The translations under genes and the position numbers were made by a program. A stretch of 50,828 nucleotides of DNA from Pseudobdellovibrionaceae bacterium (GTDB lineage Bacteria > Bdellovibrionota > Bdellovibrionia > Bdellovibrionales > UBA1609), in contig JAAOIK010000011.1 of NCBI GenBank assembly GCA_015163855.1, forward strand, positions 1 through 50,828. Reading direction: 5' to 3'. Position 1 is the first letter of the stretch. Each line of letters begins with the position of its first letter. The notes beneath the pieces are model-generated. The model did not search any database. It had not been told where the DNA came from and saw nothing but the letters and a program-made list of their open reading frames with translations. Below, one piece after another: positions 24,017-40,135 of the stretch.

Positions 24017-24024
24017 TTTAAATT

Positions 24025-25734
24025 ATGAGTACAAAAACAAAAGTAAAAACACAAACAAAAATAAATAAAAGTAAAAAAGCCAATAAACATACAAAGTATA
24101 TCTTTGTTACAGGAGGGGTGGTGTCCTCTTTAGGAAAAGGTTTAACTGCTGCAAGCTTGGGTTCTTTATTTAGGGCAAGGGGTTTTAGTGTTAGCCTTAT
24201 GAAGTGTGACCCTTATATTAATGTAGACCCTGGCACGCTTTCACCTTTTCAGCATGGAGAGGTGTTTGTTACTGAAGATGGAACAGAAGCAGATTTAGAT
24301 TTAGGTCATTACGAAAGATTTTTAGATTGTAATTTAGGAAAAAACCACAGCATTACTACGGGGCAAGTGTACGAAAAAGTTATTGCTAATGAAAGGCGAG
24401 GGGATTATTTAGGCGGTACGGTACAGGTTATCCCTCATATTACTGATGAAATTAAGCGGCGTATTTATATGGCTTCAGAGTCGATACCTAAAAAAGCATC
24501 GTCATTAAAAACTAACCCCCCAGTGGATATTTCTATTGTGGAAATTGGGGGAACAGTAGGAGATATAGAGGGGCTTCCTTTTTTAGAGGCCATTCGACAA
24601 ATTGGTTTAGATTTAAACAGCAATCAAGTGGCCTTTGTGCATCTTACTTATTTACCATACTTAACAAAGGTGGAAGAATTAAAAAGTAAACCCACTCAGC
24701 ACTCTGTAAAAGCTTTAAGAGAGATTGGTATTCACCCTAATTTTTTAATTTGTAGGTCAGAAAAAAATGTCTCTTTAGATGTTAAGAAAAAAATCAGTGC
24801 TCAATGTAGTGTTAGATTAGAAAATATTATTTCAGCCACAGACTCTAATAGCATTTACGAAGTGCCATTAGCTTTAGTTAGTAATAAATTAGACTTACAA
24901 TTACTTAAACATTTTAACATAGCTCCAAAAACTTTAAAATTACAAAAATGGAAAACTTTAGTTGCCAATCTTAAGGCGCAAAAGAAAGAAGTGACTATTG
25001 CTGTTGTTGGAAAGTATGTACATTTAAAAGAAAGTTATAAATCTTTGCACGAAGCCTTAGTGCATGGATCTGTTGCCAATAAAGTAAAAATAAAAATTAA
25101 ATATATAGATTCCGAAAAAATTACTGCTAAAAATATAAAAACTTTGTTAAAGGGAGTGGGAGGAGTGTTGGTTCCGGGAGGTTTTGGTCATCGCGCTATC
25201 GAGGGAAAATTAGTGGCTATTAATTATGCTAGAAAAAATAAAATTCCTTTTTTTGGAATTTGCTTAGGTTTGCAAATGGCTATTATTGAGTTTGCAAAAA
25301 ATGTTTGCAATTTAAAATCAGCAACTAGTGAAGAATTTATAACTAAACCTAGTGATAAAAAACATTGTGTTATTGCTTTAATGGAAGGGCAAAAGAATCA
25401 AGAAAATAGAGGTGCAAGTATGAGGTTAGGGGCTTACTCTTGCCAGCTACAAACCTCTAGTTTAATTTCTAGTATTTATAAAAGTAAAAATATTTCAGAA
25501 AGGCATCGTCATCGTTATGAGTTTAATAATCAATACCTACCTACTTTAAAGCAGGCGGGTTTAGTGTTTTCGGGTGTTAATAAAAAAATGAACTTAATAG
25601 AGGCAATAGAATTAAAAAATCACCCTTGGTTTATAGGCGTTCAATTTCATCCCGAATTTAAATCTAGGCCTTTAAAGCCTCATCCTTTATTTGTTAGTTT
25701 TATTAGTGCTATTTTAAAAAAGGAAAGTGTATGA
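24025..25734 (+). CDS. pyrG: CTP synthase
   Basis: Converts UTP to CTP using glutamine. The synthetase domain begins YIFVTGGVVSSLGKGLTAASLG. The C-terminal class I glutaminase has the nucleophile in FFGICLGLQMA and the triad His in GVQFHPEFKSRP. A lysine/threonine-rich extension of about 23 residues precedes the usual start (MSTKTKVKTQTK). No later ATG exists before the conserved region, so it is probably real. It overlaps kdsD by four bases (ATGA). Confidence 0.97.
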   Translation: MSTKTKVKTQTKINKSKKANKHTKYIFVTGGVVSSLGKGLTAASLGSLFRARGFSVSLMKCDPYINVDPGTLSPFQHGEVFVTEDGTEADLDLGHYERFLDCNLGKNHSITTGQVYEKVIANERRGDYLGGTVQVIPHITDEIKRRIYMASESIPKKASSLKTNPPVDISIVEIGGTVGDIEGLPFLEAIRQIGLDLNSNQVAFVHLTYLPYLTKVEELKSKPTQHSVKALREIGIHPNFLICRSEKNVSLDVKKKISAQCSVRLENIISATDSNSIYEVPLALVSNKLDLQLLKHFNIAPKTLKLQKWKTLVANLKAQKKEVTIAVVGKYVHLKESYKSLHEALVHGSVANKVKIKIKYIDSEKITAKNIKTLLKGVGGVLVPGGFGHRAIEGKLVAINYARKNKIPFFGICLGLQMAIIEFAKNVCNLKSATSEEFITKPSDKKHCVIALMEGQKNQENRGASMRLGAYSCQLQTSSLISSIYKSKNISERHRHRYEFNNQYLPTLKQAGLVFSGVNKKMNLIEAIELKNHPWFIGVQFHPEFKSRPLKPHPLFVSFISAILKKESV

Positions 25735-26750
25735 ATGACAAAGAAATTATATTAGCAGCACAACAAGTTTTGCATTTAGAGGCCAGTGCCGTTAACGACC
25801 TTAGCCAAACCTTAGGGGCTGATTTTTGTAAGGTGGTTAAGGCCATTGTTGCTTGCAAGTCAAAAATTGTATTTTCTGGAATTGGTAAATCAGGGCAAAT
25901 TGCTAGAAAGTTAGCTAGCACTTTTAGTTCTACGGGAAGCCCTGCTATTTTTTTACACATGGCCGAAGCCATGCATGGTGATTTTGGTGTGTTGTCTAAA
26001 GAGGATTTATTAATTGTTATTAGCTATAGTGGCGAGGGCACAGACTTGGCGGCTTTGTTAAAATATGCCAGTAGAAAAGCCATAAAACTGGTAGCTATTA
26101 CTGGAAACAGCAATAGTATTTTGGCAAAAAATTCTAGCTGGTGTTTAAATATTCAGGTAAAGCAAGAGGCTTGTCCTTTGGGCCTAGCGCCCACCTGTAG
26201 TTCTACGGTAAGTTTAGCCTTGGGCGATGCCTTGGCCGTAGCGGCTTTAGAGCTTCGCGGTTTTAAAAAAGAGAACTTTGCAGAACTGCACCCAGGGGGC
26301 AGTTTAGGAAGACGCTTGTTAACTAAAGTTTCGGACTTAATGCACACCAAAAATCTTCCTTTTGTAGATGTCGAAGAAAATTTTTTATCGGTTATGTCTT
26401 TAATGACTTCCTCTAAAGTTAGAGGAGTTGTTGGGGTGTTAAAAAATTCTCAATTAGTGGGTGTGATTACCGATGGAGACATTCGTATTTTTTTACAAAA
26501 GGTTACAGGAGATATTCGGTCACAAAAAGCTAAAGATATTATGAGCACCTCTCCTAAAAATATTGCGTTTAATGTGTTGGCCGAAGAAGCTTTACACGCT
26601 ATGGAGCAATTTAAAATTCAAGCACTATTTGTGTATAGCAGCGCCTCTTCTAATGAAGTTAATGCCAAGGGGGTTACTCTTCCCGATAAAGCTTTGCAAG
26701 TGGTGGGGTTAATTCATTTACAAGATTTGTTACAAGCTAAAATACTTTAG
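25731..26750 (+). CDS. kdsD: D-arabinose 5-phosphate isomerase
   Basis: Interconverts ribulose 5-phosphate and arabinose 5-phosphate for KDO synthesis. The SIS domain occupies about 1-190 (FSGIGKSGQIARKLASTFSS, then MHGDFGVL). Two CBS domains fill the rest, including VVGVLKNSQLVGVITDGDIR. The length of 339 fits the KdsD/KpsF/GutQ group. The operon context with kdsB favours the LPS-type KdsD. Start and pyrG stop overlap (ATGA), indicating translational coupling. Confidence 0.94.
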   Translation: MNDKEIILAAQQVLHLEASAVNDLSQTLGADFCKVVKAIVACKSKIVFSGIGKSGQIARKLASTFSSTGSPAIFLHMAEAMHGDFGVLSKEDLLIVISYSGEGTDLAALLKYASRKAIKLVAITGNSNSILAKNSSWCLNIQVKQEACPLGLAPTCSSTVSLALGDALAVAALELRGFKKENFAELHPGGSLGRRLLTKVSDLMHTKNLPFVDVEENFLSVMSLMTSSKVRGVVGVLKNSQLVGVITDGDIRIFLQKVTGDIRSQKAKDIMSTSPKNIAFNVLAEEALHAMEQFKIQALFVYSSASSNEVNAKGVTLPDKALQVVGLIHLQDLLQAKIL

Positions 26751-26810: not shown

Positions 26811-26826
26811 TTGCTTGCTTGCTTGC
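26811..26826 (+). repeat. TTGC tetranucleotide repeat, four copies
   Basis: TTGC is repeated four times in a row immediately ahead of, or at, the 5' end of the outer-membrane barrel gene. One in-frame TTG start lies inside the repeat (26819) and a GTG start lies 36 bases later. Confidence 0.85.
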
Positions 26827-26854
26827 TAAGAGTTTTTTGTATTACTCTAAGTAT

Positions 26855-27604
26855 GTGAAAACTATTAGTTTTATTTTATTTATTTTGTTTTTTGCTAAAA
26901 CTTCTCTTCAAGCCAAAGCCTTAACCTTTGATTTAGACTTTTTGCCAAAAGAAACCGTGTTGCCTTTGGTAGAAGACAGAGTATTTGTTAAAAATAAAAC
27001 CATTTTATTAAATAATCAATTAAGCTTAGGTTTTGGTGGAGGGGTTTTGTTAACAGAAGCTTTGTTTAATAATGCCGCCGGTTTTTTATCTTTAACATAC
27101 AACTTTACCGAACTTCATGGGGTATCGCTAAATACTTTTTATAGAGTGCCAGGATTGTCTGATGCGGGTAAAAAGGCAGATCAGGCTTCTGCAAAATTTT
27201 CCTTAAAATTAGTTCCTCAACTAACCGCTTTGCACTATGCGATTTATAAATATACCGCCTACTATGGAAAAATTAGTTTAAGTCATGATTGGGTTATGAA
27301 CTTAACAACATCGGTAAACATGGGAGGGGGGGTTGCGCAATATAACGATGCTAAATTCCCATTAGTGGCACTAAATGCCGATCAAAGTTTTTATTTTAGT
27401 TCAAACTTTGCGTTTAATGTATCTTTAGGTTTATTTTTTTATAAAGGCCCAGATTTTTTTTGCAAAGACAAAGGGGAATCTACTGCAGACCAAGCTTGCG
27501 TAGATCGGCCACCCGATCCCGTTCGTAGAATTACCTCTAAAGAATTACCTAAAGAGTGGAAAAACCACACCTATTTACAAACGGGATTGATTTATTTATT
27601 TTAA
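26855..27604 (+). CDS. Outer-membrane beta-barrel protein (myxobacterial OMP type), Glt-like cluster
   Basis: A secreted beta-barrel of about 249 residues. The signal is MKTISFILFILFFAKTSLQA. A region with alternating hydrophobic residues follows, and the ending YLQTGLIYLF has a C-terminal Phe. The block LHYAIYKYTAYYGKISLSHDW is the signature of the outer-membrane beta-barrel family common in myxobacteria and Bdellovibrio, many of whose members belong to gliding clusters. I chose the GTG at 26855 because the signal peptide starts there; a TTG 12 codons upstream is possible. It is paired with a second member nine bases downstream. A role as the outer-membrane part of the machine is inferred. 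Confidence 0.8.
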   Translation: MKTISFILFILFFAKTSLQAKALTFDLDFLPKETVLPLVEDRVFVKNKTILLNNQLSLGFGGGVLLTEALFNNAAGFLSLTYNFTELHGVSLNTFYRVPGLSDAGKKADQASAKFSLKLVPQLTALHYAIYKYTAYYGKISLSHDWVMNLTTSVNMGGGVAQYNDAKFPLVALNADQSFYFSSNFAFNVSLGLFFYKGPDFFCKDKGESTADQACVDRPPDPVRRITSKELPKEWKNHTYLQTGLIYLF

Positions 27605-27613
27605 GGAGTATTT

Positions 27614-28327
27614 TTGTTAAAACTATTTTTTATTTTTTTATACCTTTCTTTAATTCTTCCTTCGGTTAGTTTTTCTAAACCTAAAGAACATTGGCTTCAT
27701 GTGGATGGAGAAAAAAACTTTTCTAATATTATTGTTATATCTAAAAAGTTTTTAAAAAAAACAAACAGGCTTGAGGTTTTTACTTATGGAGCTACCAGCA
27801 TTAACAATGCCTTTTATTTAAATGCAGCGCCAGGCTTAGATATAACCTATTATTTTAAAGAAAAATATGGAGTTAGTTTTTCTTATTTGTATTTTTTTAA
27901 CTCCGCCAAAGAAATAAAAAGTAAGTTAGATCGATCTACTCTTAGGGCGCAATTAGGGTTTTCGCCAAAACAGTTTGTGGGAATGTATTTTCATTGGTCG
28001 CCCATTTATGGAAAGTTAGCTTTTTTTAATAAAAAATTAATCCCCTTTGATTTGTACTTTGCCTTAGGCTTGGGGCAGGTTAGTGCAGAATATAGAGAGC
28101 GTAATGAGGGTGGGGAAAAAGAAAAAATCACACCTTTTAAAAGCCTGTCTTTTTCTGCGCAAATGGGGCAGCAATTTGCTTGGAGCCCCGATGTAGCTAT
28201 CCATTGGAAAATTTTATGGAACGCTTTCCCTCTACCTTCGGGTGGTAAGATAACAGGTGTTGCTAATGATATTTTATTTGGGCTAGGTGTTAGCTGGTTC
28301 TTTGGTGGTAAAAATACAGGCAGGTAA
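27614..28327 (+). CDS. Second outer-membrane beta-barrel protein of the Glt-like cluster
   Basis: 237 residues, TTG start directly behind AAGGAG. The signal peptide is MLKLFFIFLYLSLILPSVSF. The middle contains WSPIYGKLAFFNKKLIPFDL, the same family block as in its neighbour (YGK followed by a strand), then FDLYFALGLG. The ending is LGVSWFFGGKNTGR. The two barrels share layout but not close sequence, so they look like an old duplication. In Myxococcus, GltA and GltB are two such barrels in one machine; equivalence here is inferred from architecture and position. Confidence 0.78.
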   Translation: MLKLFFIFLYLSLILPSVSFSKPKEHWLHVDGEKNFSNIIVISKKFLKKTNRLEVFTYGATSINNAFYLNAAPGLDITYYFKEKYGVSFSYLYFFNSAKEIKSKLDRSTLRAQLGFSPKQFVGMYFHWSPIYGKLAFFNKKLIPFDLYFALGLGQVSAEYRERNEGGEKEKITPFKSLSFSAQMGQQFAWSPDVAIHWKILWNAFPLPSGGKITGVANDILFGLGVSWFFGGKNTGR

Positions 28328-28330
28328 ATT

Positions 28331-29827
28331 ATGAAAATAAAAATGTTAAATAATATAATTATTTTTTGTAGCTTACTGATATTTACGTCAAAAGCTTTTT
28401 CTGCAAAATCTTTTTCTACTCGCACAACAGCTATTAATAAAATTTCTTATTTAATTAGTTCGGGCAATAGTAAAAAAGCTTCTGTTAAACTTTTGTCTTT
28501 GTTGCGATTTAAAGAATATAATAAATCTAAGCCACGAGTGTATTTTTTATTAGGCTTGGCCTTTGAAAAGTTACAATTAAAACGCTCTTCGGTTTGGGCT
28601 TTGTTAGAGTCTATAAAAAGTTCGAAAGGTAAGGGTAGGTATGCTCAAACTAGTTTAACTCGACTATTGTTAACCGCCAATTCTATAGAAGATAACCAGT
28701 CTATTAAAAAAGCATTGTCTGTAATGTCTTTAACCAGATTTCCCTCTAAATATCGAGCAAAATTATATTATATTTTAGCAAAAAACTATTTTGAAAAACG
28801 CAATTTTAGTAAAGCTGTTCGTTACTTTTTTAAAATTAAAAGAGGCAATGCTTTGTACTTTTTGTCACGATACTTTTTAGCTAATTCATTAGTGGAGCAA
28901 GGAAAGTTTACGCAAGCTTTACGAGTATTTAAAAAAATTGTGCAAGCAAGCAAGCCTTATACTAAAATGCATACGGCAGCTTTACTGGGACAAGCTAGAA
29001 TTTACTATCAACTAAAACGATGGAAGCGAGCGTTAAAGTTATATTATAACATACCTAGGGATTCTGAGTTTTGGGTAGAAGCTTTGCAAGAATCTGCATG
29101 GACCGAGCTAAGGTTAAATAAGTTAAATATGGCTTTGCGACATTTTCAAACGATTCACTCTTCTTATTATAAAAGAAACTATATTCCAGAGTCTTTAATT
29201 TTAAGAGCTGTGGTTTATTTAAAGCTATGTAGGTACGAAGAGGTAAAGAAAATTTTAAGTATTTATAATCAGGAGTATAAAGGTGTATTAAGCAATGTTT
29301 CTTGGTTATTAAGAAAAAAGAGAGCTTTGTACTCTTTTTATATTAAACTATTAAGAAAAAAGAATGTAGAATCTTGGAAGGCAAAACTGGCAAGCTCGGG
29401 CCCAATTAAAAAACTATTTCAACAAATTATTGGATTAGCTAAAGAAAGAAAAAAATTAAGAAGACTATTTTCTTCAAGATCCTTAGCGGCTAGGCCCGTA
29501 TTTAAAAACATTAAATCAAATTTATTGTACTCTAAAAGCTATTTAAGAATTGCGGGAGAGTTAGAATTAGTTAAAATGCGAAAAGAATTAATTAATTTAA
29601 AAAAACAAAAAGATTTTATTCGTTATGAATTGTTAAAATCAAAGCAAACCAGTATAAAGAAAAAAATTGCAGAAAAAAAACTAGGAATTAAAAAAGAAGA
29701 ACAAGAAGAGGATAAACGAAACTATTATATTCAAAATGGATATGAATATTGGCCATTTCAAGGAGAATATTGGTTAGATGAACTAGGTAATTATTACTAT
29801 ATTGGGGGCTCTAGCTGTGCAAGATAA
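28331..29827 (+). CDS. Periplasmic TPR protein, GltE/AglT-like
   Basis: 498 residues with signal peptide MKIKMLNNIIIFCSLLIFTSKAFS. Tetratricopeptide-type helical repeats follow over about 30-330 (for example LYYILAKNYFEKRNFSKAVRYF and ALLGQARIYYQLKRWKRALKLY). A charged coiled-coil region occupies about 400-465. The aromatic, conserved-looking end is YWPFQGEYWLDELGNYYY. TPR proteins next to TolQR-type motors and TonB-like partners are components of the Myxococcus Glt machinery. Assignment to one specific Glt protein is tentative. It overlaps the start region of the next TPR gene. Confidence 0.75.
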   Translation: MKIKMLNNIIIFCSLLIFTSKAFSAKSFSTRTTAINKISYLISSGNSKKASVKLLSLLRFKEYNKSKPRVYFLLGLAFEKLQLKRSSVWALLESIKSSKGKGRYAQTSLTRLLLTANSIEDNQSIKKALSVMSLTRFPSKYRAKLYYILAKNYFEKRNFSKAVRYFFKIKRGNALYFLSRYFLANSLVEQGKFTQALRVFKKIVQASKPYTKMHTAALLGQARIYYQLKRWKRALKLYYNIPRDSEFWVEALQESAWTELRLNKLNMALRHFQTIHSSYYKRNYIPESLILRAVVYLKLCRYEEVKKILSIYNQEYKGVLSNVSWLLRKKRALYSFYIKLLRKKNVESWKAKLASSGPIKKLFQQIIGLAKERKKLRRLFSSRSLAARPVFKNIKSNLLYSKSYLRIAGELELVKMRKELINLKKQKDFIRYELLKSKQTSIKKKIAEKKLGIKKEEQEEDKRNYYIQNGYEYWPFQGEYWLDELGNYYYIGGSSCAR

Positions 29828-32800
29828 AAGGCCTTTGCTAATTAGTATTTTAATAACGATTTTTTTAAACCCTTTGGCGTACGGAGGGGGTAAGTCTTCA
29901 GTTAAGTTAAATAGAAAAACAATTCATCTTTCTAAATTTTCTAAAACACAAATAGCTACAAAGTCAAAAATACAGTTAAAAGACATTAGGCCTCCTGTAT
30001 CTAGGCAATTTAGCTTTCCTCCAGGAACAGATTTACAAGAATTAGAAACGGTTACTGACGAAAGTATTAAATACCTTTTTAATTTAGCAAAACGATACAA
30101 AGCCGACAGAGACAGAGCAGATATTTGGCTGCGCTTAGCTAAACAATATTTTGAAAAAAGCAAATTGGTTAAATTAAAATTACATGAACGCTATCACAAA
30201 AAAAGAAGGCACAGAAAAAGAATCAATTTTAACTCTTCTTATGTTTATAATAAAAAATCTTTAAAACTGTACTTATGGTTTTTAAAAACCTTTCCCAATG
30301 AAAAAAGAAGTGAAAAAGTTTATAGCTTTGCTATAAAAAATTATTTGTTGTTTGACCAAGTAAAGAAGGCCGCTGCTTTATACACTACCTTTTCTAAAAA
30401 ATATTCCAGCAGTTTATTAAAAGAAGAATTAAATTTTTTAATTGCCGACTATTATTTTTCTAAGTTCTTTTGGAAGCAAGCAAAAAAGTTTTATAAGCAA
30501 GGTTTAAAAAGCCGTACAAAAAGGCTTAAATATTTAATTTACTATAAATTGGCTTGGGTTAATCACAAAATGGGAAAATATAAAACGGCATTTTCTTATT
30601 TAACTTTAGTTTTAAAAAATACTCAATCGGGCAAGTTGTTTTCTTTTAAAAAAATAGCCATTCGTGATTTACCTTATTTTTATAGTAGGTATGGATCAGG
30701 CTCATCAGCAAAAAAAATGTTTTCAAGATACATGTCTAACAAACAAATGAAAAAGTCTTTAGGGTTATTAGCCAGCTATTACTTGTCAGACGGAAGGCGC
30801 AGTGATGCTGTTTATATTTGGAGGCAGCTAATATCCATGAACCCTATGGAAGAGGGCAGCTTTGAATATGCTTATAAAATTATTCAATCCTATAAGTATA
30901 GCCAAATAGTAACTAAAAATATTCTTTTAATAAAAAGGTGGCTGTCTAATTATGGGCTTAATAGCCAGTGGCTTAATCGAGATTATAAAAACCGCAAAAA
31001 ATATGTACAAAAGCAAGAAGAATATCTTCGCTATTTAATAGCCACTTTTTATAATAAAAAAGCGACTAAAAATAAAGCTAAGCGAATGCGTAGTTTATTG
31101 TCTTTATACCCGCTATATTTAAAAAGTTTTTCTAACCAAAAATGGAATAAAAAAAAGCTGCTAGAAATAAAATTTTTATATGCAGACTTATTGTTTGATA
31201 AAAAAAAATATGCAAAGGCTCAAGGCCAATATAACGAAATTGTTTCTTTTGGGCAGTCTTCATTTTATAAAAAAGCACTATATAATAAAGTTTTATGCTC
31301 GGAAAAAAGAATTCTTTCTTACAATCAAGTAAAAAAAAGAACTCGTAATTTTTCTAAGATATTACCTATTTCAGGAGTAGAAAAATTATTCGAAGCTTCT
31401 GCCCTACATTATTTAAGCTCTTATGCAGATTTAAATTTAGAATATCGTTTAGGTTATTTTTATTACAATAGATTGCAGCTGGCGCTGGCAGATAAAACCT
31501 TAAATAGTTATTTAAACCATGCCGCAAAATCTAAGAGAAATAAAGTGGCTAGAAAGCAGGTGATATCTTGGTTGGTAGACATTTATAGTAAACAAAAAAA
31601 ATATGAAAAAATTAAAACGCTATTTGAAGCAAATACCGCTGTGGCAAGGTCTAAAAAATTTCAACATCAAAAAGACAAAGTTTACTTTAAGGTGGCTGAA
31701 AATTTAGAAAAGCAAAAAAAGTATTTAAAAGCTATTAAAGAGTATGAAAAAATTGATTTAAAAAAATCATCGTTAGCCACACCAGCTTTATTTAATCGAG
31801 CCAATCTATATCTTAAAATTAAAGATATAAGCAAGGCTGCGTTTTTTTTACAGAAAATTAAATTTTCTAAAAATAAAACTTTATATAAAAAAGCAAAATT
31901 GTCATTGGTTTCTATATACAGAGAAAAAGGTTTGTATGTTAAGGTTGCACAAGCTTTAGAAAGCATGGCTAAAAATAAATTTAGAGAATCAGCAACTTGG
32001 TACTATAATGCAGGAATTTTAAGAAAAAGTTTAAAGCAGTATAAATCAGCTATAAATGATTTTAATAAATTTTTATTACTATCAAAAAATGTAAGAAAAA
32101 AAAGAAAAGTAAAACTTTTGTTAGTAGATTTATATATAGCTACTAATCAAGTTAGTAAGTCTATAACTCTTTTAAAAAAATATTATCGCACTAGCACCAG
32201 CAGTAAAGAAAAGTATTTTATAGGCGATAAAATAATAGGTTTGTACAAAAGGCTAAATAAACCTAGTAAAGCAGGTTGGTGGCAAAAAAAGTTATTTTCA
32301 AGCTATGTAAAAAACAGAAGAACTTTTAATAAGTACCCCAGAATTTTACAGGTAGTGGCAAAAATAAAATATACTTATGCCAAACAAGCCTTCTCTAAAT
32401 TATTACAGCTTAAATTTAATAAAAAATTAAAACTACAAACACTAACTAAGCAAAAGTTAGCTCTACTAGAGAAAGTTCAAAAAGAAGCTAAAGCAGTGGC
32501 TAGTTTAAATAATTCTGACTATTTATTAAAGGTGTTAGTTTTAGAGGCAAGAGCAGAATCGCATGTGGCTAATTTTTTTACCAGCCTTCCTGTTCCTAAA
32601 TCTTTAAAGGGAGATGACAAAAAAGCGTATATTAAAGGTGTAAAAAAATTTACAGATCCTATGTTGTTGCGAGGAAAAAAATTATACGAGCTAACTTTAG
32701 AAAAAGCATACGACTTTAAAATTTACAACACAACCGTAGTGTTTGCATATAATCAAATAGCTAGCCAAGAAGATTCTGTAAAAAAACCGTATATATCTTA

Positions 32801-33506
32801 CTTCGAAAGGCTAAAAGTTAATTTTACCACTAGTGGGCAATTTTTATATAAAGGTAAATACAAACAAAAATTTACCACTTTCATTGCTATGAAAAAATTT
32901 GCCTTATCGGGCATTGCTAATGAAAATGGTAACCAAGACTACTGGTATATTTTATCTGCCTCTTATATTGGGCGAGGTTTTTTAGATTTAGCAGATATTA
33001 TTTTAGAAGACAAAGGCTTGTTAAAGGCCAATGCATCGGCCTATTACAATGACAAAGCAGTGTTAGCCTTAAAAAGAGGAGAAATTTCCGAAGGCGTTGC
33101 ATTTTTAGAGAAAATTTCTAAAAATACTTTATTGCAAAACAGTTATGCAGGTATTAATTTAGCCTTTGTTTATGCCAGCTACTCTGAGTTTGCAAAAGCA
33201 AAGGGCATTTTCGATTATTTTAATAAAAAAAGTTATGCTTTTTCTATTATGGATTTAAACAATTATGCCATAGTGGCCGAGCTTTTGAAAAAATTTAATA
33301 AGGCAAAAAAACTATATAAAAAAGCACTAACAATAGACGCAGAATACTCTTTGGGCTTATTTAATTACGGCTATTTTTTATTTCAAACTAATCAAAAAGG
33401 TGCAGATATAAGCTCTCTTTTAGAGCGGGCTAAAGTATGGAATAATGACAAAAGGCTATTAAAATTAATAAAACTACTAAACAATAGGGTGGGGAGAACT
33501 ATTTAA
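29817..33506 (+). CDS. Giant periplasmic TPR protein, gliding-machine type
   Basis: About 1229 residues. A signal-like N-terminus (LLISILITIFLNPLAYG) precedes more than a thousand residues of TPR-like helical hairpins, very rich in Lys, Tyr and Phe, with repeats such as YADLLFDKKKYAKAQGQYNE and YNAGILRKSLKQYKSAINDF. The size and position recall the large TPR proteins AgnA/GltD or AgmK/GltI of Myxococcus; which one cannot be told by eye. I propose the GTG at 29817, preceded by GGGGG nine bases upstream. TTG codons at 29802 and 29835 are alternatives. It overlaps the previous gene and shares TAATG with the next. Confidence 0.75.
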   Translation: MQDKRPLLISILITIFLNPLAYGGGKSSVKLNRKTIHLSKFSKTQIATKSKIQLKDIRPPVSRQFSFPPGTDLQELETVTDESIKYLFNLAKRYKADRDRADIWLRLAKQYFEKSKLVKLKLHERYHKKRRHRKRINFNSSYVYNKKSLKLYLWFLKTFPNEKRSEKVYSFAIKNYLLFDQVKKAAALYTTFSKKYSSSLLKEELNFLIADYYFSKFFWKQAKKFYKQGLKSRTKRLKYLIYYKLAWVNHKMGKYKTAFSYLTLVLKNTQSGKLFSFKKIAIRDLPYFYSRYGSGSSAKKMFSRYMSNKQMKKSLGLLASYYLSDGRRSDAVYIWRQLISMNPMEEGSFEYAYKIIQSYKYSQIVTKNILLIKRWLSNYGLNSQWLNRDYKNRKKYVQKQEEYLRYLIATFYNKKATKNKAKRMRSLLSLYPLYLKSFSNQKWNKKKLLEIKFLYADLLFDKKKYAKAQGQYNEIVSFGQSSFYKKALYNKVLCSEKRILSYNQVKKRTRNFSKILPISGVEKLFEASALHYLSSYADLNLEYRLGYFYYNRLQLALADKTLNSYLNHAAKSKRNKVARKQVISWLVDIYSKQKKYEKIKTLFEANTAVARSKKFQHQKDKVYFKVAENLEKQKKYLKAIKEYEKIDLKKSSLATPALFNRANLYLKIKDISKAAFFLQKIKFSKNKTLYKKAKLSLVSIYREKGLYVKVAQALESMAKNKFRESATWYYNAGILRKSLKQYKSAINDFNKFLLLSKNVRKKRKVKLLLVDLYIATNQVSKSITLLKKYYRTSTSSKEKYFIGDKIIGLYKRLNKPSKAGWWQKKLFSSYVKNRRTFNKYPRILQVVAKIKYTYAKQAFSKLLQLKFNKKLKLQTLTKQKLALLEKVQKEAKAVASLNNSDYLLKVLVLEARAESHVANFFTSLPVPKSLKGDDKKAYIKGVKKFTDPMLLRGKKLYELTLEKAYDFKIYNTTVVFAYNQIASQEDSVKKPYISYFERLKVNFTTSGQFLYKGKYKQKFTTFIAMKKFALSGIANENGNQDYWYILSASYIGRGFLDLADIILEDKGLLKANASAYYNDKAVLALKRGEISEGVAFLEKISKNTLLQNSYAGINLAFVYASYSEFAKAKGIFDYFNKKSYAFSIMDLNNYAIVAELLKKFNKAKKLYKKALTIDAEYSLGLFNYGYFLFQTNQKGADISSLLERAKVWNNDKRLLKLIKLLNNRVGRTI

Positions 33507-33760
33507 TGCCTAAGTTATTATTGTTGTTTGCATTTTTATTTTATTCTTCTGTGCTTTTTGCTAAAAAACCTAGCAAAAACGACACCATTCGTTTTTCTGA
33601 AGAAACCATTGAGGGGGAATTTAACACCACCGATTTGTTTTATTTATTAAAAGAAGATTCTTTAGATAACCGCTATTTATTTAAATTAAGAAATCACTTT
33701 AAGCCAGAAATGAAAGCAACAGGATTAAATTTAGAAAAATCCTTTGGAGGCTTTAATTAA
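33506..33760 (+). CDS. Small secreted protein of the Glt-like cluster
   Basis: 84 residues beginning MPKLLLLFAFLFYSSVLFA, a clear signal peptide, so about 65 residues reach the periplasm. The mature part carries RFSEETIEGEFNTTDLFYLL and ends GLNLEKSFGGFN. I cannot name a family. The ATG overlaps the stop of the giant TPR gene and its own stop overlaps the next ATG (TAATG on both sides). This tight coupling argues that it is a genuine subunit or assembly factor of the same complex. Confidence 0.75.
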   Translation: MPKLLLLFAFLFYSSVLFAKKPSKNDTIRFSEETIEGEFNTTDLFYLLKEDSLDNRYLFKLRNHFKPEMKATGLNLEKSFGGFN

Positions 33761-35256
33761 TGTTTAAAAATAAAAGAAAATTTAAAAATACTTTTGCTCC
33801 ATCTAGTGAAAATGATTCATGTTTAGATATAGTATCTCCTAGCTCAGGTAGTGTTATAGAGGTTTCTACTTTTTGGAAAGAAAGACTACTTCAAGTTTAT
33901 TCTTTTCCTAAAAAAGGTTCTGTGTATTTGTCTAATAAAAAAGATGGAGCAAATTTTGTAATAGCTCCAAAAGAGTACTCGGCAAAAAACAAAGCAAGAT
34001 TACTAAAAATAACTAATAAAGCGGTAGAATGTTATCCCGTTAAGTCTACATTTTCTTATTACTCAAAAAAAGGCGAAGTTCCTTATTCCGCTTTGGTAGA
34101 ATCTTCGCAAATAGTTCAAAAATCGAAACAAACCTGTATTATTTTAAAGCAAGGTGAGTTAGTTCGCCTACATTCTAAATCCAGTGATTTTCAAATTACA
34201 ATTAGTTACAAAAAGCCATCTTCTTCTGCTAAGGCTGGAGCATTAATTAGTATGAGCTTATCAGAGCTTAGCGTATTGGCACTATCTTTTGTAGCTTTGC
34301 TATTTTTGTTTTTATACAATACGGCCATAGAAGAAAAGGCTGCTAAAACTCCTTTAGAAGTTAAAAAATTTGTTAGTGTTAGTTTTAAAAAAAACAAACC
34401 CACTCTTATTAAAAAAACAGTAGTGGATTCGGGCATAAACAAGCCTAAAAAAAGTACTGCTAAAAAGAAAAATCCTAAAAAAAGGATTGTTGTTAAATCA
34501 AAACCTTCTGTTGTAAAGCACAAAAAAGTTTCTAAAAAAGGGACCGCTTTTAAAATTAAAAAAGGCAAAACTAAAGCCAGTGTTTTGGGTCGTAAATCAG
34601 GCGGACTAAGAAAGAAAAAAGTAGATGTTAAATCGGTAGGAATCTTAGGTGTTTTTGCTAAATCAGGTAAGCAGAAAAAAATAGCAAAGTTGGGCGCTGG
34701 GTCGGGTGGCCTATATGGTTTAGCTCGATCAAAAGTTAAAGGTTCGGGGGCGGGTAATTCTTCCGACCGTTTGGCTACGCGTTTTGGTTCTGGGTTAAAA
34801 AGAAGTAAAGGGGGAAGTCCAAACTCCACAGTAAAATTAGGTTCGGGGATTGGAACTTACGGTTCTCCTAATGGATTGTCTGGAGGGAGTATAGACTTGG
34901 GTAGCCCTAGCAAAGTTAGTATTTCTTATGCGGGAGATGTAGGAGATGATTTTGTTGGTGGAGGAGTAGATTCTGCTGGTATTTATCGAGTTATTCAAGC
35001 TCATAAAAATGTTATTCGATTTTGCTACCAAAAAGAACAAGATTATTATCCTTCTTTAGGAGGTTTGGTAAGTTTATATTGGAAAATTAATAGCAAAGGG
35101 CGAGTAGTAAATGCAAATATTAAAAAATTAAGTTCTTCTAAGATGAGAGGTGTGGGAAATTGCATTGTTAAGAACTTAAGGTCTTGGATTTTTCCAAAGA
35201 CACCTAAAGGAAGCTTTCAAGCAGTAGAATTTCCATTTAGGTTTAAAGGCAAATAA
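33760..35256 (+). CDS. TonB-like trans-envelope protein with AgmX/PglI C-terminal domain
   Basis: 498 residues. The N-terminal cytoplasmic part (1-160) is beta-rich and may be a degenerate FHA domain. One transmembrane helix lies at about 168-189. A Lys/Pro-rich linker (about 200-280) and a long Gly/Ser-rich stretch (about 290-400) could span the periplasm. The C-terminal 90 residues (from IYRVIQAHKNVIRFCYQKEQ, with the later GNCIVKNLRSWIFP) match the AgmX/PglI C-terminal domain found in GltG and GltJ. It is the likely energy-transducing link between the TolQR-type motor downstream and the TPR/outer-membrane proteins upstream. Confidence 0.88.
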   Translation: MFKNKRKFKNTFAPSSENDSCLDIVSPSSGSVIEVSTFWKERLLQVYSFPKKGSVYLSNKKDGANFVIAPKEYSAKNKARLLKITNKAVECYPVKSTFSYYSKKGEVPYSALVESSQIVQKSKQTCIILKQGELVRLHSKSSDFQITISYKKPSSSAKAGALISMSLSELSVLALSFVALLFLFLYNTAIEEKAAKTPLEVKKFVSVSFKKNKPTLIKKTVVDSGINKPKKSTAKKKNPKKRIVVKSKPSVVKHKKVSKKGTAFKIKKGKTKASVLGRKSGGLRKKKVDVKSVGILGVFAKSGKQKKIAKLGAGSGGLYGLARSKVKGSGAGNSSDRLATRFGSGLKRSKGGSPNSTVKLGSGIGTYGSPNGLSGGSIDLGSPSKVSISYAGDVGDDFVGGGVDSAGIYRVIQAHKNVIRFCYQKEQDYYPSLGGLVSLYWKINSKGRVVNANIKKLSSSKMRGVGNCIVKNLRSWIFPKTPKGSFQAVEFPFRFKGK

Positions 35257-35298
35257 AGTAAATAAAGTAAAAAATAGAATAATAAAAAATAGAATAAT
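35251..35298 (+). repeat. Tandem A/T-rich repeats before the TolQ-like gene
   Basis: AAATAAAGT occurs twice (35251-35259, 35260-35268) and AAAAAATAGAATAAT twice (35269-35283, 35284-35298), all copies perfect. They fill the gap between the AgmX-type gene and the AAGGAG site of the TolQ-like gene. Confidence 0.9.
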
Positions 35299-35318
35299 AA
35301 AAAGAAAAGGAGAACAGC

Positions 35319-36014
35319 ATGACAGAAGAGGTAACAGCAGCAGTAGTAGGTCACTGTAGTACGCAGGTTAATTTCATTGCAAAACATTTTTGCGAAGGTG
35401 GAATAGCTATGTACTATATTGCAGCCATCGGCATAGTATCTTTATTTTTAGTTATAGAACGCTTTTTGAGCTTGCGAGCTTTAAGTATTTCTAGAGAAAG
35501 TATTAACACAGGGGTTTTTAGTGCAATTTTATCTGGCAATCTTAAGTCTGCCATTGCTTTTTGCGACAGCAACCCAAGGCCTTTAACAAATACTTTAAAA
35601 GCGGGTTTAATTCAGGTTTTAAATAAACGACCTGACGAAGAAGTGCAAGTGGCTATGGACGCCAGTGTGTTACGCGAAATTCCTAGAGTAGAGGGGTGGT
35701 TTAATTTCTTAGCCGTATTGGGTAACATGTCAGTGTTAGTAGGTTTGGTGGGAACTGTTGTGGGACTAATTATATCTTTTGGAGGTATAGCCCTAGCCGA
35801 TAATTCTATGAAAGCTATTTTACTTTCTCGAGGAATTTCAGAAGCCTTAAACTGTACAGCCTTTGGATTGATGGTTGCCATTGTTGCTATTTTATTTCAT
35901 GGATTTTTTAGTATTAGAATTTCTAAAGAAACCAGTTTAATATTAGAAAAAAGTATGGAAGTTATGAATTTAGTAACTTCTAACAGAGATAAACTAAAAA
36001 ACACAATGGCCTAG
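35319..36014 (+). CDS. TolQ/ExbB/MotA-family proton-channel subunit (AglR-like)
   Basis: 231 residues with three membrane helices: about 31-49 (MYYIAAIGIVSLFLVIE), 128-152 (LGNMSVLVGLVGTVVGLIISF) and 175-197 (CTAFGLMVAIVAILFHGFF). The GLVGTVVGLI and AFGLMVAI blocks are hallmarks of the family. It forms the stator ring that conducts protons with the two ExbD-type proteins downstream. In Myxococcus the corresponding AglRQS motor drives Glt gliding. A strong AAAAGGAG ribosome site suggests high expression relative to its neighbours, fitting a multi-copy ring protein. Confidence 0.92.
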   Translation: MTEEVTAAVVGHCSTQVNFIAKHFCEGGIAMYYIAAIGIVSLFLVIERFLSLRALSISRESINTGVFSAILSGNLKSAIAFCDSNPRPLTNTLKAGLIQVLNKRPDEEVQVAMDASVLREIPRVEGWFNFLAVLGNMSVLVGLVGTVVGLIISFGGIALADNSMKAILLSRGISEALNCTAFGLMVAIVAILFHGFFSIRISKETSLILEKSMEVMNLVTSNRDKLKNTMA

Positions 36015-36047
36015 CAAGGTAAGTGGCTGCTTATAAAATAAGGAATT

Positions 36048-36506
36048 ATGGATATTCAATCACATATTCGATCTAATAATATTAATGGGGAACTAAACAT
36101 TGTTCCTTTCATTGATTTATTAAGTGTTTTAATTATTTTTTTATTGTTTACTTCTGTATGGTCTCAACTATCTATGATAGAGCTAGGCAGCTCTATTCAT
36201 GGTAAACAAACAGAAAGCAACGCTAAGAATATAAAAAATAAATCCAGTTTAAGTTTGTCGGTTTTAAAAAAAGGATATTTATTACGCTTTTCTGGAAAAA
36301 GCATATTTATTTCTAAAAAAAATGGAGAATACGATAGTGTAAGGTTAAAATCTTTATTAAAAAACTATAAAAAGAAATTTCCAAAACAAGTAACGGTAGC
36401 GATTAGTATGCCTAATCAATTAGAATATCGATTTTTGGTAGAAGCTATGGATTACTTGTTATCAGAAAACTTATCTAACCTAACTATTTCTGCCGAAGCA
36501 TTTTAA
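36048..36506 (+). CDS. ExbD/TolR-family protein 1 (AglS/AglQ-like)
   Basis: 152 residues with one N-terminal membrane helix after about 15 residues. The proton-carrying aspartate of the family is Asp23 in NIVPFIDLLSVLIIFLLF. The periplasmic part (50-152) ends with the typical strand-helix pattern YRFLVEAMDYLLSENLSNLTI. It acts with the TolQ-like ring protein. Two such genes in tandem also occur in AglRQS, where both are needed. Confidence 0.92.
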   Translation: MDIQSHIRSNNINGELNIVPFIDLLSVLIIFLLFTSVWSQLSMIELGSSIHGKQTESNAKNIKNKSSLSLSVLKKGYLLRFSGKSIFISKKNGEYDSVRLKSLLKNYKKKFPKQVTVAISMPNQLEYRFLVEAMDYLLSENLSNLTISAEAF

Positions 36507-36529
36507 TATTAACTGAAGGGAGTTGCGCT

Positions 36530-37039
36530 ATGCCAATACATGTTCCAGGTTATAGAAGCCAAAAATTACAAGCTAATAAAGAAGAAATTAAAAGCACTTT
36601 GTCTTTAACTCCTTTAATTGATTTGTTTGTAGTTCTAGCTGCTTTTTTATTACAGCAGTTTTTGCAAAATGGCGAAGCAGTAGAGCTTCAAGATAGTGTA
36701 GCCTTACCTCAAGCTAGTATAGTAAAGCCTTTAAGGCCTTCTTTGGTTATAGTTTTATCTAAAGAAAAAATTGCAGTAAATAATACAAAAGTAGCCACTT
36801 TTGATGATTTAAAAAACCAAAAACAATGGATATTTGCTCCCTTACTAAAGGCTTTAAAAAAAGAAATTGTCTTAACTAAAGAAAAAGACAGCAAAAAAGC
36901 AAATAATAATATTAAAGTTACTATTCAGGCAGATAAAGATATAGACTTTTTATCTATTAAAAAAATTATGTATACCATTACCGAATCTGGATTAAGTGAA
37001 ATGAGTTTTGCTGTAATTAAAAAAATAGAAAATAAATAA
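36530..37039 (+). CDS. ExbD/TolR-family protein 2
   Basis: 169 residues, single membrane helix with the conserved Asp31 in LTPLIDLFVVLAAFLLQQF. The periplasmic domain ends with IDFLSIKKIMYTITESGLSEMSF, the family pattern. It is preceded by GAAGGGAG. It is only loosely similar to the first ExbD-type protein, so the motor probably uses two different peptidoglycan-side subunits rather than a homodimer. Confidence 0.92.
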   Translation: MPIHVPGYRSQKLQANKEEIKSTLSLTPLIDLFVVLAAFLLQQFLQNGEAVELQDSVALPQASIVKPLRPSLVIVLSKEKIAVNNTKVATFDDLKNQKQWIFAPLLKALKKEIVLTKEKDSKKANNNIKVTIQADKDIDFLSIKKIMYTITESGLSEMSFAVIKKIENK

Positions 37040-37049
37040 CTTTCTTTTA

Positions 37050-37904
37050 ATGAAAAAATTTTCTGGCCTTTTTATATCTGTTGGCATATTTTGTGTTTTT
37101 TTGTGGAGTATTTTTTATTTACTAGAAGAGCGAAAAAACTCTTGGAATATTGTTATTAAACAAATAACTCACGACAAAGTAATTACATCTATCGAAGGCT
37201 TTAGTGCCTTTAGAAAGTACAAAACATATTTAGTGTCGGTGTTGGCAAAAACAGCTATAGAGAATGATAGTAATGAAAACAGGCGCTGGGTATTAAAAGA
37301 TATTACATTAACTGTAAAGTGGATTGCAAAATCTAAAGCCTTAAAGCCTAAAGTGTTAATTTTAAAATCGCAATCTGCAATTTTTGATAAAAGCATAGGC
37401 TTACTAAGATTTACGGATACGGCTTATATCAGTTTTTCTAAATACAATGTAGAAGTACAAGATTTGCAATATGACTTTAAAACTTCGCAGTTATTTAGCA
37501 ACACAAAGGTGGCAATTAAAAGTAATACTTTTTACATTACATCTAAAGGTTTAAAACTTAATTTAACCCCTTTACAAATAAAATTATTTTCAAAAGTAAA
37601 GTTGCAATTTACCAATCAACTTTCCGGAAGCAGTATTACATCAGAAAAGCTAAGTTATAATTTTAAAGATCATTTTGTATTTAATAAACAAGTAAAAATT
37701 ATTCATAAAGCTTATAAAAGTTTTTCTAATCAATTAATTTTTAATAATTCTAAAGAACAACTACAATATGCCTTAAAGGGAAATGTATCTATATTTATTG
37801 GAGGGCATAACTTTAAGGGGCAAATGATTTTATTTAACCCAATAGACCAAAGTATAGAAATTAAAAAAGGAAAAATTCAAGTAGATGAAAGTTTAAATTT
37901 TTAA
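37050..37904 (+). CDS. lptC: LptC-like LPS export protein, enlarged, possibly including an LptA-type domain
   Basis: 284 residues with one N-terminal membrane helix (about 7-24), then almost wholly beta-strand sequence. The first part (to about 190) fits the LptC jellyroll; segments such as ITSEKLSYNFKDHFVFNKQVKI and LKGNVSIFIGGHNFKGQMIL resemble the repeated strands of the LptA/OstA fold. LptC is usually near 190 residues. No separate lptA precedes lptB here, whereas the common order is lptC-lptA-lptB-rpoN. A fused periplasmic bridge is plausible but needs structure prediction. Its start is 11 bases after the motor genes. Confidence 0.7.
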   Translation: MKKFSGLFISVGIFCVFLWSIFYLLEERKNSWNIVIKQITHDKVITSIEGFSAFRKYKTYLVSVLAKTAIENDSNENRRWVLKDITLTVKWIAKSKALKPKVLILKSQSAIFDKSIGLLRFTDTAYISFSKYNVEVQDLQYDFKTSQLFSNTKVAIKSNTFYITSKGLKLNLTPLQIKLFSKVKLQFTNQLSGSSITSEKLSYNFKDHFVFNKQVKIIHKAYKSFSNQLIFNNSKEQLQYALKGNVSIFIGGHNFKGQMILFNPIDQSIEIKKGKIQVDESLNF

Positions 37905-37946: not shown

Positions 37947-38669
37947 GTGTTTACTTTAAAAGTACAAAATATATCTAAATCTATAAAAAAAATTAATATT
38001 CTTTCTGACATATCTTTTAAATTAGAAAGTGGAAAAATATTAGGTCTGTTAGGGCCCAACGGGTCTGGAAAAACCACTTCATTTTATTCGGCACTAGGCT
38101 TAATCTCCATAGATGCTGGGCAGATTTTATTAAATGACGAAGACATCACTCATATTCCTTTTTACAAAAGAGCAAAAAAAGGTTTAATTTATTTGCCTCA
38201 AGAACCCAGTGTTTTTGCCGAGTTAAGCGTTAAAGATAATTTAAAAATTGTTTTAGAGTCTAAAAAGCTGTCTCGCATTGAAACACACGAAAAATTAGAA
38301 GGCCTTTTAAAGGAATTTGGTTTATTAGCTAGCATAGGCAAGAAAGCTTACCAATTGTCGGGGGGAGAGCGTCGTAGGCTTGAAATTGCACGGTGTTTAG
38401 CTTTGGACCCTAAATTCTTATTTTTAGATGAGCCTTTTGCTGGACTAGACCCTGTGGTGATTTTAGAAATTAAAAGTTTTTTAGAAAATATCCGAACTAA
38501 AGGTGTAGGGATTCTTATTACGGACCATAATGTACAAGAGACGCTTAAAATATGTGACTCTGTTGTAGTGTTAAGAAACGGAAAAGTAATTGCCTCGGGC
38601 TTAGTAGAAGATGTTGCAAAAATAGAAGAGGTAAAGGAATTTTACTTAGGATCTAATTTTCGCCTATAA
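37947..38669 (+). CDS. lptB: LPS export ABC transporter ATP-binding protein
   Basis: The cytoplasmic ATPase that powers LPS extraction from the inner membrane. It has Walker A GPNGSGKT (36-43), YLPQEPSVFAELSVKDNL (Q-loop region, typical of LptB), signature LSGGERRRLEIARCLA, Walker B FLFLDEPFAGLDP and the switch His in LITDHNVQETL. The length of 240 is normal. Translation starts at GTG with no good ribosome site. The position between the LptC-like gene and rpoN is the classic lpt arrangement and supports the name over other ABC proteins. Confidence 0.95.
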   Translation: MFTLKVQNISKSIKKINILSDISFKLESGKILGLLGPNGSGKTTSFYSALGLISIDAGQILLNDEDITHIPFYKRAKKGLIYLPQEPSVFAELSVKDNLKIVLESKKLSRIETHEKLEGLLKEFGLLASIGKKAYQLSGGERRRLEIARCLALDPKFLFLDEPFAGLDPVVILEIKSFLENIRTKGVGILITDHNVQETLKICDSVVVLRNGKVIASGLVEDVAKIEEVKEFYLGSNFRL

Positions 38670-38716: not shown

Positions 38717-40135
38717 ATGTCACAAAAATTAAAAATGTCTATGAAGTTGTCCCAACAACTTAAAATGAGCCCACAGTTGCAGCAAGCCATTAAGTTACTA
38801 CAAGTATCTAGGTTAGAGCTAGCTTCTTCTATTCAAAATGAATTAGTAAATAACCCTTTATTAGAAGAAATGGTAGAAACCATTGACCCCGAAGAGGCAA
38901 GTAGAAAAAAAGAAAGTGTAGAGTCGGATTCTAATTTAGAAGAGTTAGGTGATGTTTCTGATTTTGAAACTGGAGCAAACTCTGATTTAGATTGGAGAAA
39001 ACTAAACAAATCGGTTTTAGCTTTGTCTATGCAAGGAAAAGATGACTTAAATTATGAGCAAATATTAAGTAAGTCAGTTAGTTTGGCAGAACATTTAGAG
39101 TGGCAGGTGCAGGTATCTATATTAGATAAGGAGCAAAAAGAATTAGCTTATTTATTAATAGACTCTATTGATGATGATGGATACTTAAGTACGGCTTTAG
39201 AAGAAATATCTAAAAGCAGTGATGTAGATTTAGAAGATCTAGAAGAAGTGCTGCTACATATTCAAGAAATGGACCCTCCTGGAGTGGGAGCAAGAAACTT
39301 GCAAGAAAGTTTAATTTTACAAGCGAAACATCATCAAGAAGATACTCCAGATATTTTAAATATTATTAACAATCACTTTTCTGATTTAGAAAAAAAAGAT
39401 TTTAAAGCCATAGCGCAAGCATTAAACTATGATGTTAAATTAACTAAAGAGCTGTGTGAAATTATTTTAAATTTTTCGCCACAGCCAGGACAGGCCTTTA
39501 CTGTTACCTCGGCAGGGACTTATGTTAGTCCAGATATTTATATTGCTAAAAATGCAGAAGAGTATGTGATTTTTTTAAACCAAGAGGGGTTGCCCAGTTT
39601 GCAAATTTCTCCTTCCTATAAGGATTGGAAAAATGATAAAAAAATGAAGTCGTATGTAGACGAAAAATTTAAGTCAGCAGTTTGGATTATTCGCTCGTTA
39701 TACCAGCGACAAAAAACTATATATAGAGTAACCGAATGCATTTTAAAAAGACAGTTAGATTTTTTTGAAAAAGGACCAGAATATTTAAAGCCTATGATTT
39801 TAAAAGATGTATCTCAAGAAATTGATGTACATGAATCTACAGTAAGTCGTGTTGTAAGTAATAAGTATGTGCATACTCCAAGGGGCTTATTATCTTTAAA
39901 ATATTTTTTTAATTCTGCAGTAGCTTGTACTGATGGTAAATTAATTTCTAGTGCTTCGGTAAAAACAAAAATTAAAAAAATCATTGCTAAAGAAGATCCT
40001 GCGCGACCTTTTTCTGATCAAAAGTTAACTAAATATTTAGAAACAGAGGGTATTCAAGTAGCGCGAAGAACTGTTGCTAAATATAGAGAGCTATTAAAAA
40101 TTTCACCGGCCTCTAAAAGAAAGAAAAGTGCTTAA
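38717..40135 (+). CDS. rpoN: RNA polymerase sigma-54 factor
   Basis: 472 residues. The N-terminal activator-interacting region is Gln/Leu-rich (LSQQLKMSPQLQQAIKLLQ, with NPLLEE). An acidic linker follows at about 57-95. The core-binding domain contains DDDGYL and DPPGVGARNLQESL. The DNA-binding part has HESTVSRVVSNKYVHTPRG and the RpoN box ARRTVAKYRE near the C-terminus. It partners with the two AAA+ activators at 12-13.4 kb and 21.9-23.2 kb. Four bases separate it from the amidase gene. Confidence 0.97.
   Translation: MSQKLKMSMKLSQQLKMSPQLQQAIKLLQVSRLELASSIQNELVNNPLLEEMVETIDPEEASRKKESVESDSNLEELGDVSDFETGANSDLDWRKLNKSVLALSMQGKDDLNYEQILSKSVSLAEHLEWQVQVSILDKEQKELAYLLIDSIDDDGYLSTALEEISKSSDVDLEDLEEVLLHIQEMDPPGVGARNLQESLILQAKHHQEDTPDILNIINNHFSDLEKKDFKAIAQALNYDVKLTKELCEIILNFSPQPGQAFTVTSAGTYVSPDIYIAKNAEEYVIFLNQEGLPSLQISPSYKDWKNDKKMKSYVDEKFKSAVWIIRSLYQRQKTIYRVTECILKRQLDFFEKGPEYLKPMILKDVSQEIDVHESTVSRVVSNKYVHTPRGLLSLKYFFNSAVACTDGKLISSASVKTKIKKIIAKEDPARPFSDQKLTKYLETEGIQVARRTVAKYRELLKISPASKRKKSA

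Follow-up and report, generated by a model that had tools for sequence, protein, structure and literature searches.

The closest described relatives of the locus analyzed here are the agl/glt systems of Bdellovibrio bacteriovorus and Myxococcus xanthus. In B. bacteriovorus, work published in 2010-2011 described Bd0828-0838 as a single locus (PMC2797640, PMC3169522), which Luciano et al. put forward as the leading candidate for the gliding apparatus of Bdellovibrio (PMC3169522); according to a 2026 review, the gliding machinery is still unidentified (PMC13104615). A transposon mutant of aglS (Bd0838) can neither attach to prey nor kill or round it, and predation also requires Bd0836 (PMC6561027). 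The M. xanthus gliding machinery, GltA-K and AglRQS, is encoded in clusters G1, G2, and M1; in this species, GltG is bound by AglR, and none of the glt genes that were tested is dispensable for gliding (PMC3169522). Here, we describe an agl/glt locus in a 50,828-nucleotide stretch (the window; contig JAAOIK010000011.1, our C11) of a Pseudobdellovibrionaceae bacterium, whose 1,243,968-base genome is 95.5% complete. We found that this locus is inserted, order-wide, in the classical lipopolysaccharide (LPS) operon kdsD...lptC-lptB-rpoN, and that the window version carries a gene fusion and a domain loss.

The locus consists of nine plus-strand open reading frames (ORFs; 26819-37039) packed nearly without gaps: two spacers of 9 and 3 bp are followed by three overlaps (26, 1, and 1 bp) and then by spacers of 62, 33, and 23 bp. 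It begins with two GltA/GltB-like outer-membrane barrels, of which the first (26819-27604) matches TIGR04565 (OMP_myx_plus) below the curated cutoff (E 8e-14) and the second (27614-28327) above it (E 2.4e-20). These are followed by the periplasmic TPR protein GltC (28331-29827; NF033756, E 6e-41), a 1234-amino acid periplasmic TPR protein that joins GltD to GltE (29802-33506; TPR profile and profiles of split orthologues), and the small secreted protein GltF/CglF (33506-33760), whose match to NF033764 is weak (E 9e-5) and whose position is conserved in relatives. GltG (33760-35256; NF033760, E 7e-24) has no N-terminal FHA domain, and its AgmX/PglI tail exceeds the cutoff of NF033768 (E 2e-21). 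The motor genes come last: aglR (35319-36014), of the TolQ/ExbB/MotA family (PF01618, MotA_ExbB, E 2e-25), and aglQ (36048-36506) and aglS (36530-37039), both of the ExbD/TolR family (PF02472, E 7e-16 and 1e-8, respectively). Thus, the ORFs and profiles confirm the cluster of barrels, TPR proteins, a small secreted protein, an AgmX/PglI-tailed protein, and a TolQ-TolR-TolR motor that a sequence-only reading of the window had described. The window proteins, GltE included, miss the NCBIfam equivalog cutoffs of the myxobacterial families (score/cutoff 141/450 for GltC, 84/650 for GltG, and 22/90 for CglF), and GltG of a Bdellovibrio does so likewise (232/650).

The AlphaFold2 (AF2) model of barrel 1 (predicted local distance difference test score, 83) has 8 strands, and Foldseek matched it to OmpA/OmpW barrels (probability 1.0). 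Its start codon is uncertain, being either a TTG inside the TTGC repeat at 26811-26827 or an in-frame GTG at 26855. The repeat has approximately four TTGC copies, and these overlap potential TTG start codons for barrel 1 in each of the three frames; the run could be a slippage tract or due to chance.

The gene set, the gene order, and the terminal position of the motor are the same in Bd0828-0838 and in the window. Thus, the compact one-unit layout is not new but already that of B. bacteriovorus (PMC2797640, PMC3169522). M. xanthus has counterparts of the GltA/B-like barrels, GltC-GltG, and AglRQS, but there they are spread over three clusters, as had been stated (PMC3169522), whereas in the window they form one. 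GltI and GltK were not seen in the window cluster, and no GltJ was found in the genome, in which only two GltGs passed the AgmX/PglI-tail cutoff. In a complete Bdellovibrio genome (stretch L050), the locus leads, as in the window, into LptC-LptA, LptB, and rpoN. In this relative, the LptC and LptA domains are fused in one protein (L050:16811-17836; PF06835, PF03968). Bdellovibrio differs from the window in having separate GltD and GltE, a lipoprotein-like signal on GltE, and an FHA domain in GltG; some Bdellovibrio (e.g., strain kdesi) also lack the kdsD that lies directly upstream in the window.

To place the locus in its order, we compared the sequence surrounding gltC, over at most 20 kb, in 36 relatives, together with 80 loci, nearly all from Bdellovibrionales/Bdellovibrionota, with B. 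bacteriovorus kdesi and Bdellovibrio sp. qaytius among them; the genome set contains a single relative from the same genus. A gltC gene was found in 58 of 59 relatives of the order. The order barrel-barrel-gltC-gltD(-gltE)-gltF-gltG-aglR-aglQ-aglS was kept across 91 distinct loci as far as the stretches reach, with rare exceptions, and since the identical gene order recurs across Bdellovibrionales, the cluster is not a product of chance. In each of the 66 order loci with enough flank, the motor came after gltG, on the same strand. In the same phylum outside the order (20 loci), the Glt core barrel-gltC-gltD-gltE-gltF-gltG was mostly intact; the motor genes lay on the opposite strand or not within the stretch, and no kdsD/lptB frame was seen around the core. 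Thus, the one-unit layout with a terminal motor is a trait of the order and not of the window genome. The contig CALQIT020000007.1, titled Streptomyces griseus, carries a complete Bdellovibrionales kdsB-pyrG-kdsD-glt-agl-lptB block and is probably a mislabelled metagenome bin.

In the window, the cluster is preceded by kdsB, pyrG, and a kdsD-like sugar-phosphate isomerase gene (ORFs at 23261-26750, plus strand), the upstream half of an LPS/CTP block. An LptC-like LPS export protein (37050-37904; PF06835, E 1.5e-8) starts 10 bp after aglS and is followed by LptB, the LPS export ATPase (37947-38669), and RpoN, sigma-54 (38717-40135), all on the plus strand; LptB and RpoN were assigned by sequence and conserved position. 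Across the loci, 59 had a same-strand kdsD upstream of the cluster and 13 lacked it, among them that of B. bacteriovorus kdesi. Of the 30 loci flanked by 3 kb or more, 24 had lptB no farther than 3 kb downstream; in total, lptB was seen in 49 loci, and it was present in every locus with 4.5 kb of flank. The sequence-only reading had pointed out a link to LPS export genes. This link is genuine, and a more accurate description of it is that the cluster is inserted in the kdsD-lptC-lptB-rpoN operon. An FHA-sigma54 activator (21895-23202, plus strand; PF00498, 6e-18; PF00158, 5e-65) is conserved across the order beside the kdsB-pyrG-kdsD-glt block. It is divergent in most relatives and codirectional with the block in this genus; rpoN lies at the opposite end. 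A search for sigma-54 promoter patterns near the cluster gave nothing exceeding chance, and sigma-70 promoters and terminators showed no clear excess over shuffled sequence. The order-wide insertion into the LPS operon appears in no paper that we searched; also new within this literature are the conserved FHA-sigma54 neighbor, the GltD-GltE fusion, the loss of FHA in the genus, and the finding that a small genome without detectable flagellin has kept two agl systems. The same searches returned no relevant paper on Bd0826, Bd0827, or Bd0839-0842, or on a link between lptB and gliding in Bdellovibrio.

In the window genome, GltD and GltE are joined in a single protein. Profiles built from split orthologues cover residues 32-992 (GltD, 1e-148) and 1051-1230 (GltE, 9e-20) of the 1234-amino acid product. 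A separate ORF of 250-360 amino acids follows gltD in 73 of 101 scored loci, with a recognizable lipobox in 34 of the 73, while 28 loci carry the fusion as in the window; these counts include some places fetched twice. The separate ORFs tested match the GltE model NF033758 (6e-15 to 5e-13), although, being TPR proteins, they match other TPR models too. GltD itself has no NCBIfam match and was assigned by its order-wide profile and position. GltC, GltD, and GltE are thus all present in the window, with GltE joined to GltD.

The second peculiarity is the loss of FHA from GltG, which is specific to this genus. The domain is present in GltG of M. xanthus and of the Bd0828-0838 type in Bdellovibrio; we detected it at the N terminus in the three relatives tested (PF00498, 3e-14 to 1e-12) and, by alignment, in 12 of 12 relatives outside the genus. 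At this locus, a complete GltG as short as ~500 residues occurs in no other genus among all 47 genomes of the family; the one other short match sits at a contig end. The AF2 model shows the parts that were retained: a cytoplasmic beta-sandwich, a transmembrane helix (167-194), a disordered linker, and a C-terminal domain that Foldseek matched to the TonB C-terminal domain (probability 1.0). We do not claim an FHA-like fold for the N-terminal sandwich, for which the best Foldseek E value was 0.05, mixed with IRF/SMAD folds. The statement that no cytoplasmic FHA component is visible in the cluster therefore holds for the cluster, where GltG is without the domain, but the FHA-sigma54 activator lies 3.6 kb upstream. 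Because the Bd0412-type GltG proteins of the family are also too short to hold an FHA domain, FHA is a variable and not a defining part of the Agl/Glt machinery.

The motor looks functional, because the transmembrane aspartate is kept in both AglQ (D23; Asp in 103 of 105 aligned sequences) and AglS (D31; 103 of 103). The genome encodes four MotA/TolQ/ExbB genes: aglR of the window, tolQ, exbB, and the aglR of a second agl/glt cluster. The canonical tolQ-tolR-tolA-tolB locus lies elsewhere in the genome (L056), as does an exbBD pair beside pseudopilin genes (L055), and no tolA, tolB, or pal was found beside the window motor. Tol-Pal has a motor of the same superfamily and a TolA/TonB-like linker, but the TolQ, TolR, ExbB, and ExbD equivalog models score far under their cutoffs on the window motor proteins. 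Profiles and separate loci thus agree with the earlier view that the machine is of Agl/Glt type and has a motor of its own.

The second, divergent agl/glt cluster lies on contig C27 (L057:460-9907). Its best match is a cluster located around 410 kb in a complete Bdellovibrio genome of 3.99 Mb (AglR, 4e-64; GltD, 2e-52), which corresponds to Bd0412-0420 by position and gene count. Like the window locus, it encodes AglRQS, GltC-, GltD-, and GltG-like proteins, and a barrel, but it has another gene order, an extra 311-amino acid lipoprotein-like gene, and a GltG without FHA, and its AglQ lacks the transmembrane aspartate: in both genomes of the genus, serine takes its place (ISFISLLS), whereas Asp is retained in AglQ of the Bdellovibrio counterpart. 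Of the four agl systems of Bdellovibrio, two have thus been kept, the window-type locus and this cluster. Close to the second cluster (L057:11022-12194) lies a gene for a 390-amino acid BspA-type leucine-rich-repeat protein with near-identical repeats (LRR_5, 1.5e-92).

No MglA had been seen in the cluster, which is correct for the cluster but not for the genome, as MglA is encoded on contig C10 (L155:1474-2061; 195 amino acids, E 2.5e-59 to M. xanthus MglA). Its neighbors are recR and a small gene of the DUF149 type, and the protein has Ser at position 21, both as described for B. bacteriovorus. In Bdellovibrio, MglA is also encoded away from the locus, and gliding itself does not need it (PMC3983030). 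Convergent with mglA is a gene for a von Willebrand-type (vWA/MIDAS-family) adhesin, the two genes together spanning L155:1474-3296; the adhesin matches NF052240, a Bdellovibrio MIDAS adhesin model, below the cutoff (1.7e-42) and is related to a Bdellovibrio prey-invasion adhesin family. MglB (PF03259), which is also absent from B. bacteriovorus, and flagellin were not found with family profiles, the two absences resting on these profiles in the 95.5% complete genome; a family search found no flagellar MotA. There was no RomR-like protein among eight of ten response-regulator matches. ATPases of type IV pilus, Tad, and type II secretion system type are present; a suspected stop in PilT proved to be the end of an intact frame, and a pseudogene was rejected. 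The 1.24-Mb genome thus apparently belongs to a non-flagellate reduced lineage with pilus-type ATPases and two agl/glt systems.

We consider it likely that the product of the locus is a force transducer of the Agl/Glt family that spans the envelope, is driven by protons, and serves surface or prey attachment and/or gliding. AglR with AglQ and AglS would form an ion-driven stator in the inner membrane and move GltG, a TonB/TolA-like bitopic protein. The C-terminal domain of GltG would cross the peptidoglycan to reach a periplasmic TPR scaffold (GltC, GltD-GltE, and GltF) and the two outer-membrane barrels, and the moving outer-membrane complex would apply force to surface adhesins, resulting in gliding and/or attachment to the prey surface. 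With the FHA domain absent, any phosphothreonine control through it would be gone. The transducer reading draws on the family profiles, the conservation of the locus throughout the order, the aspartates kept in AglQ and AglS, the transmembrane helix and TonB-like tail of GltG, the 8 strands of barrel 1, the binding of AglR to GltG in M. xanthus, and the predation defects of Bdellovibrio aglS and Bd0836 mutants, and is favored by the retention of two agl systems, MglA, pilus-type ATPases, and a MIDAS-family adhesin in a genome without detectable flagellin or flagellar MotA. For the window organism, the sequence shows which genes are present and in what order, their orthology, the fusion, the domain loss, the motor aspartates, and an mglA on another contig; assembly of the machine, its use of protons, and its role in gliding or attachment are what we infer.

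Several points weigh against this view. The profile matches of barrel 1 and GltF are weak, and the locus is taken as the counterpart of Bd0828-0838 on gene content, order, and map position rather than HD100 numbering. The Bd0838 mutant was not among the five complemented mutants (PMC6561027), and the surface-induced gliding genes tested by reverse transcription PCR in Bdellovibrio, bd1480 and bd3099, belong to other loci (PMC9140294). Furthermore, Bd0828-0838 is up-regulated in host-independent growth rather than in early predation (PMC2797640). Last, because aglS lies directly upstream of lptCA-lptB, its transposon insertion may have had a polar effect on LPS export; should lptB be an essential gene in Bdellovibrio, the viability of the insertion would speak against full polarity.

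The position between kdsD and lptC-lptB-rpoN across the order, the near-universal occurrence (58/59), the retention in a 1.24-Mb genome, and the expression in host-independent growth (PMC2797640) would also fit a machine devoted chiefly to envelope maintenance tied to LPS transport or outer-membrane remodeling, with gliding and attachment defects as side effects. We regard this as unlikely, since the Glt core outside the order lies away from kdsD and lptB, and the linkage is thus unnecessary for function; Bdellovibrio tolerates aglS insertions, so that the gene is non-essential for axenic growth; and linkage alone can reflect shared growth-phase expression. That the Agl/Glt machine of Bdellovibrionales is functionally coupled to LPS transport, its place in the LPS operon marking a force-driven outer-membrane/LPS remodeling device of which this genus would carry a stripped, FHA-less, and GltD-GltE-fused form free of phosphothreonine control, is a speculative and rather doubtful proposal. 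That the machine transports a surface polymer or secreted product instead of pulling adhesins, as the Agl-Nfs spore-coat system of M. xanthus does, is improbable: the same motor class drives polysaccharide movement during M. xanthus sporulation (PMC3858216), but no polymer synthesis or export genes were seen in the cluster apart from those for LPS, and the literature on the orthologues points to attachment. An ordinary Tol-Pal or TonB system, suggested by the TolQ/ExbB and TolR/ExbD homology of the motor genes and the TonB-like fold of the GltG tail, is rejected as hardly credible given the separate tolQRAB and exbBD loci, the equivalog scores, and the family matches of GltC, the GltG tail, and GltE.

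The locus type described here is one of four candidate loci for Bdellovibrio gliding, found order-wide in a fixed gene order and kept, with only one of the other three, in a genome reduced to 1.24 Mb and without detectable flagellin. Because it lies inside an LPS operon, the published aglS transposon phenotype needs a control for polarity. The fused, FHA-less variant of this genus provides natural evidence on which parts of the machine are dispensable.

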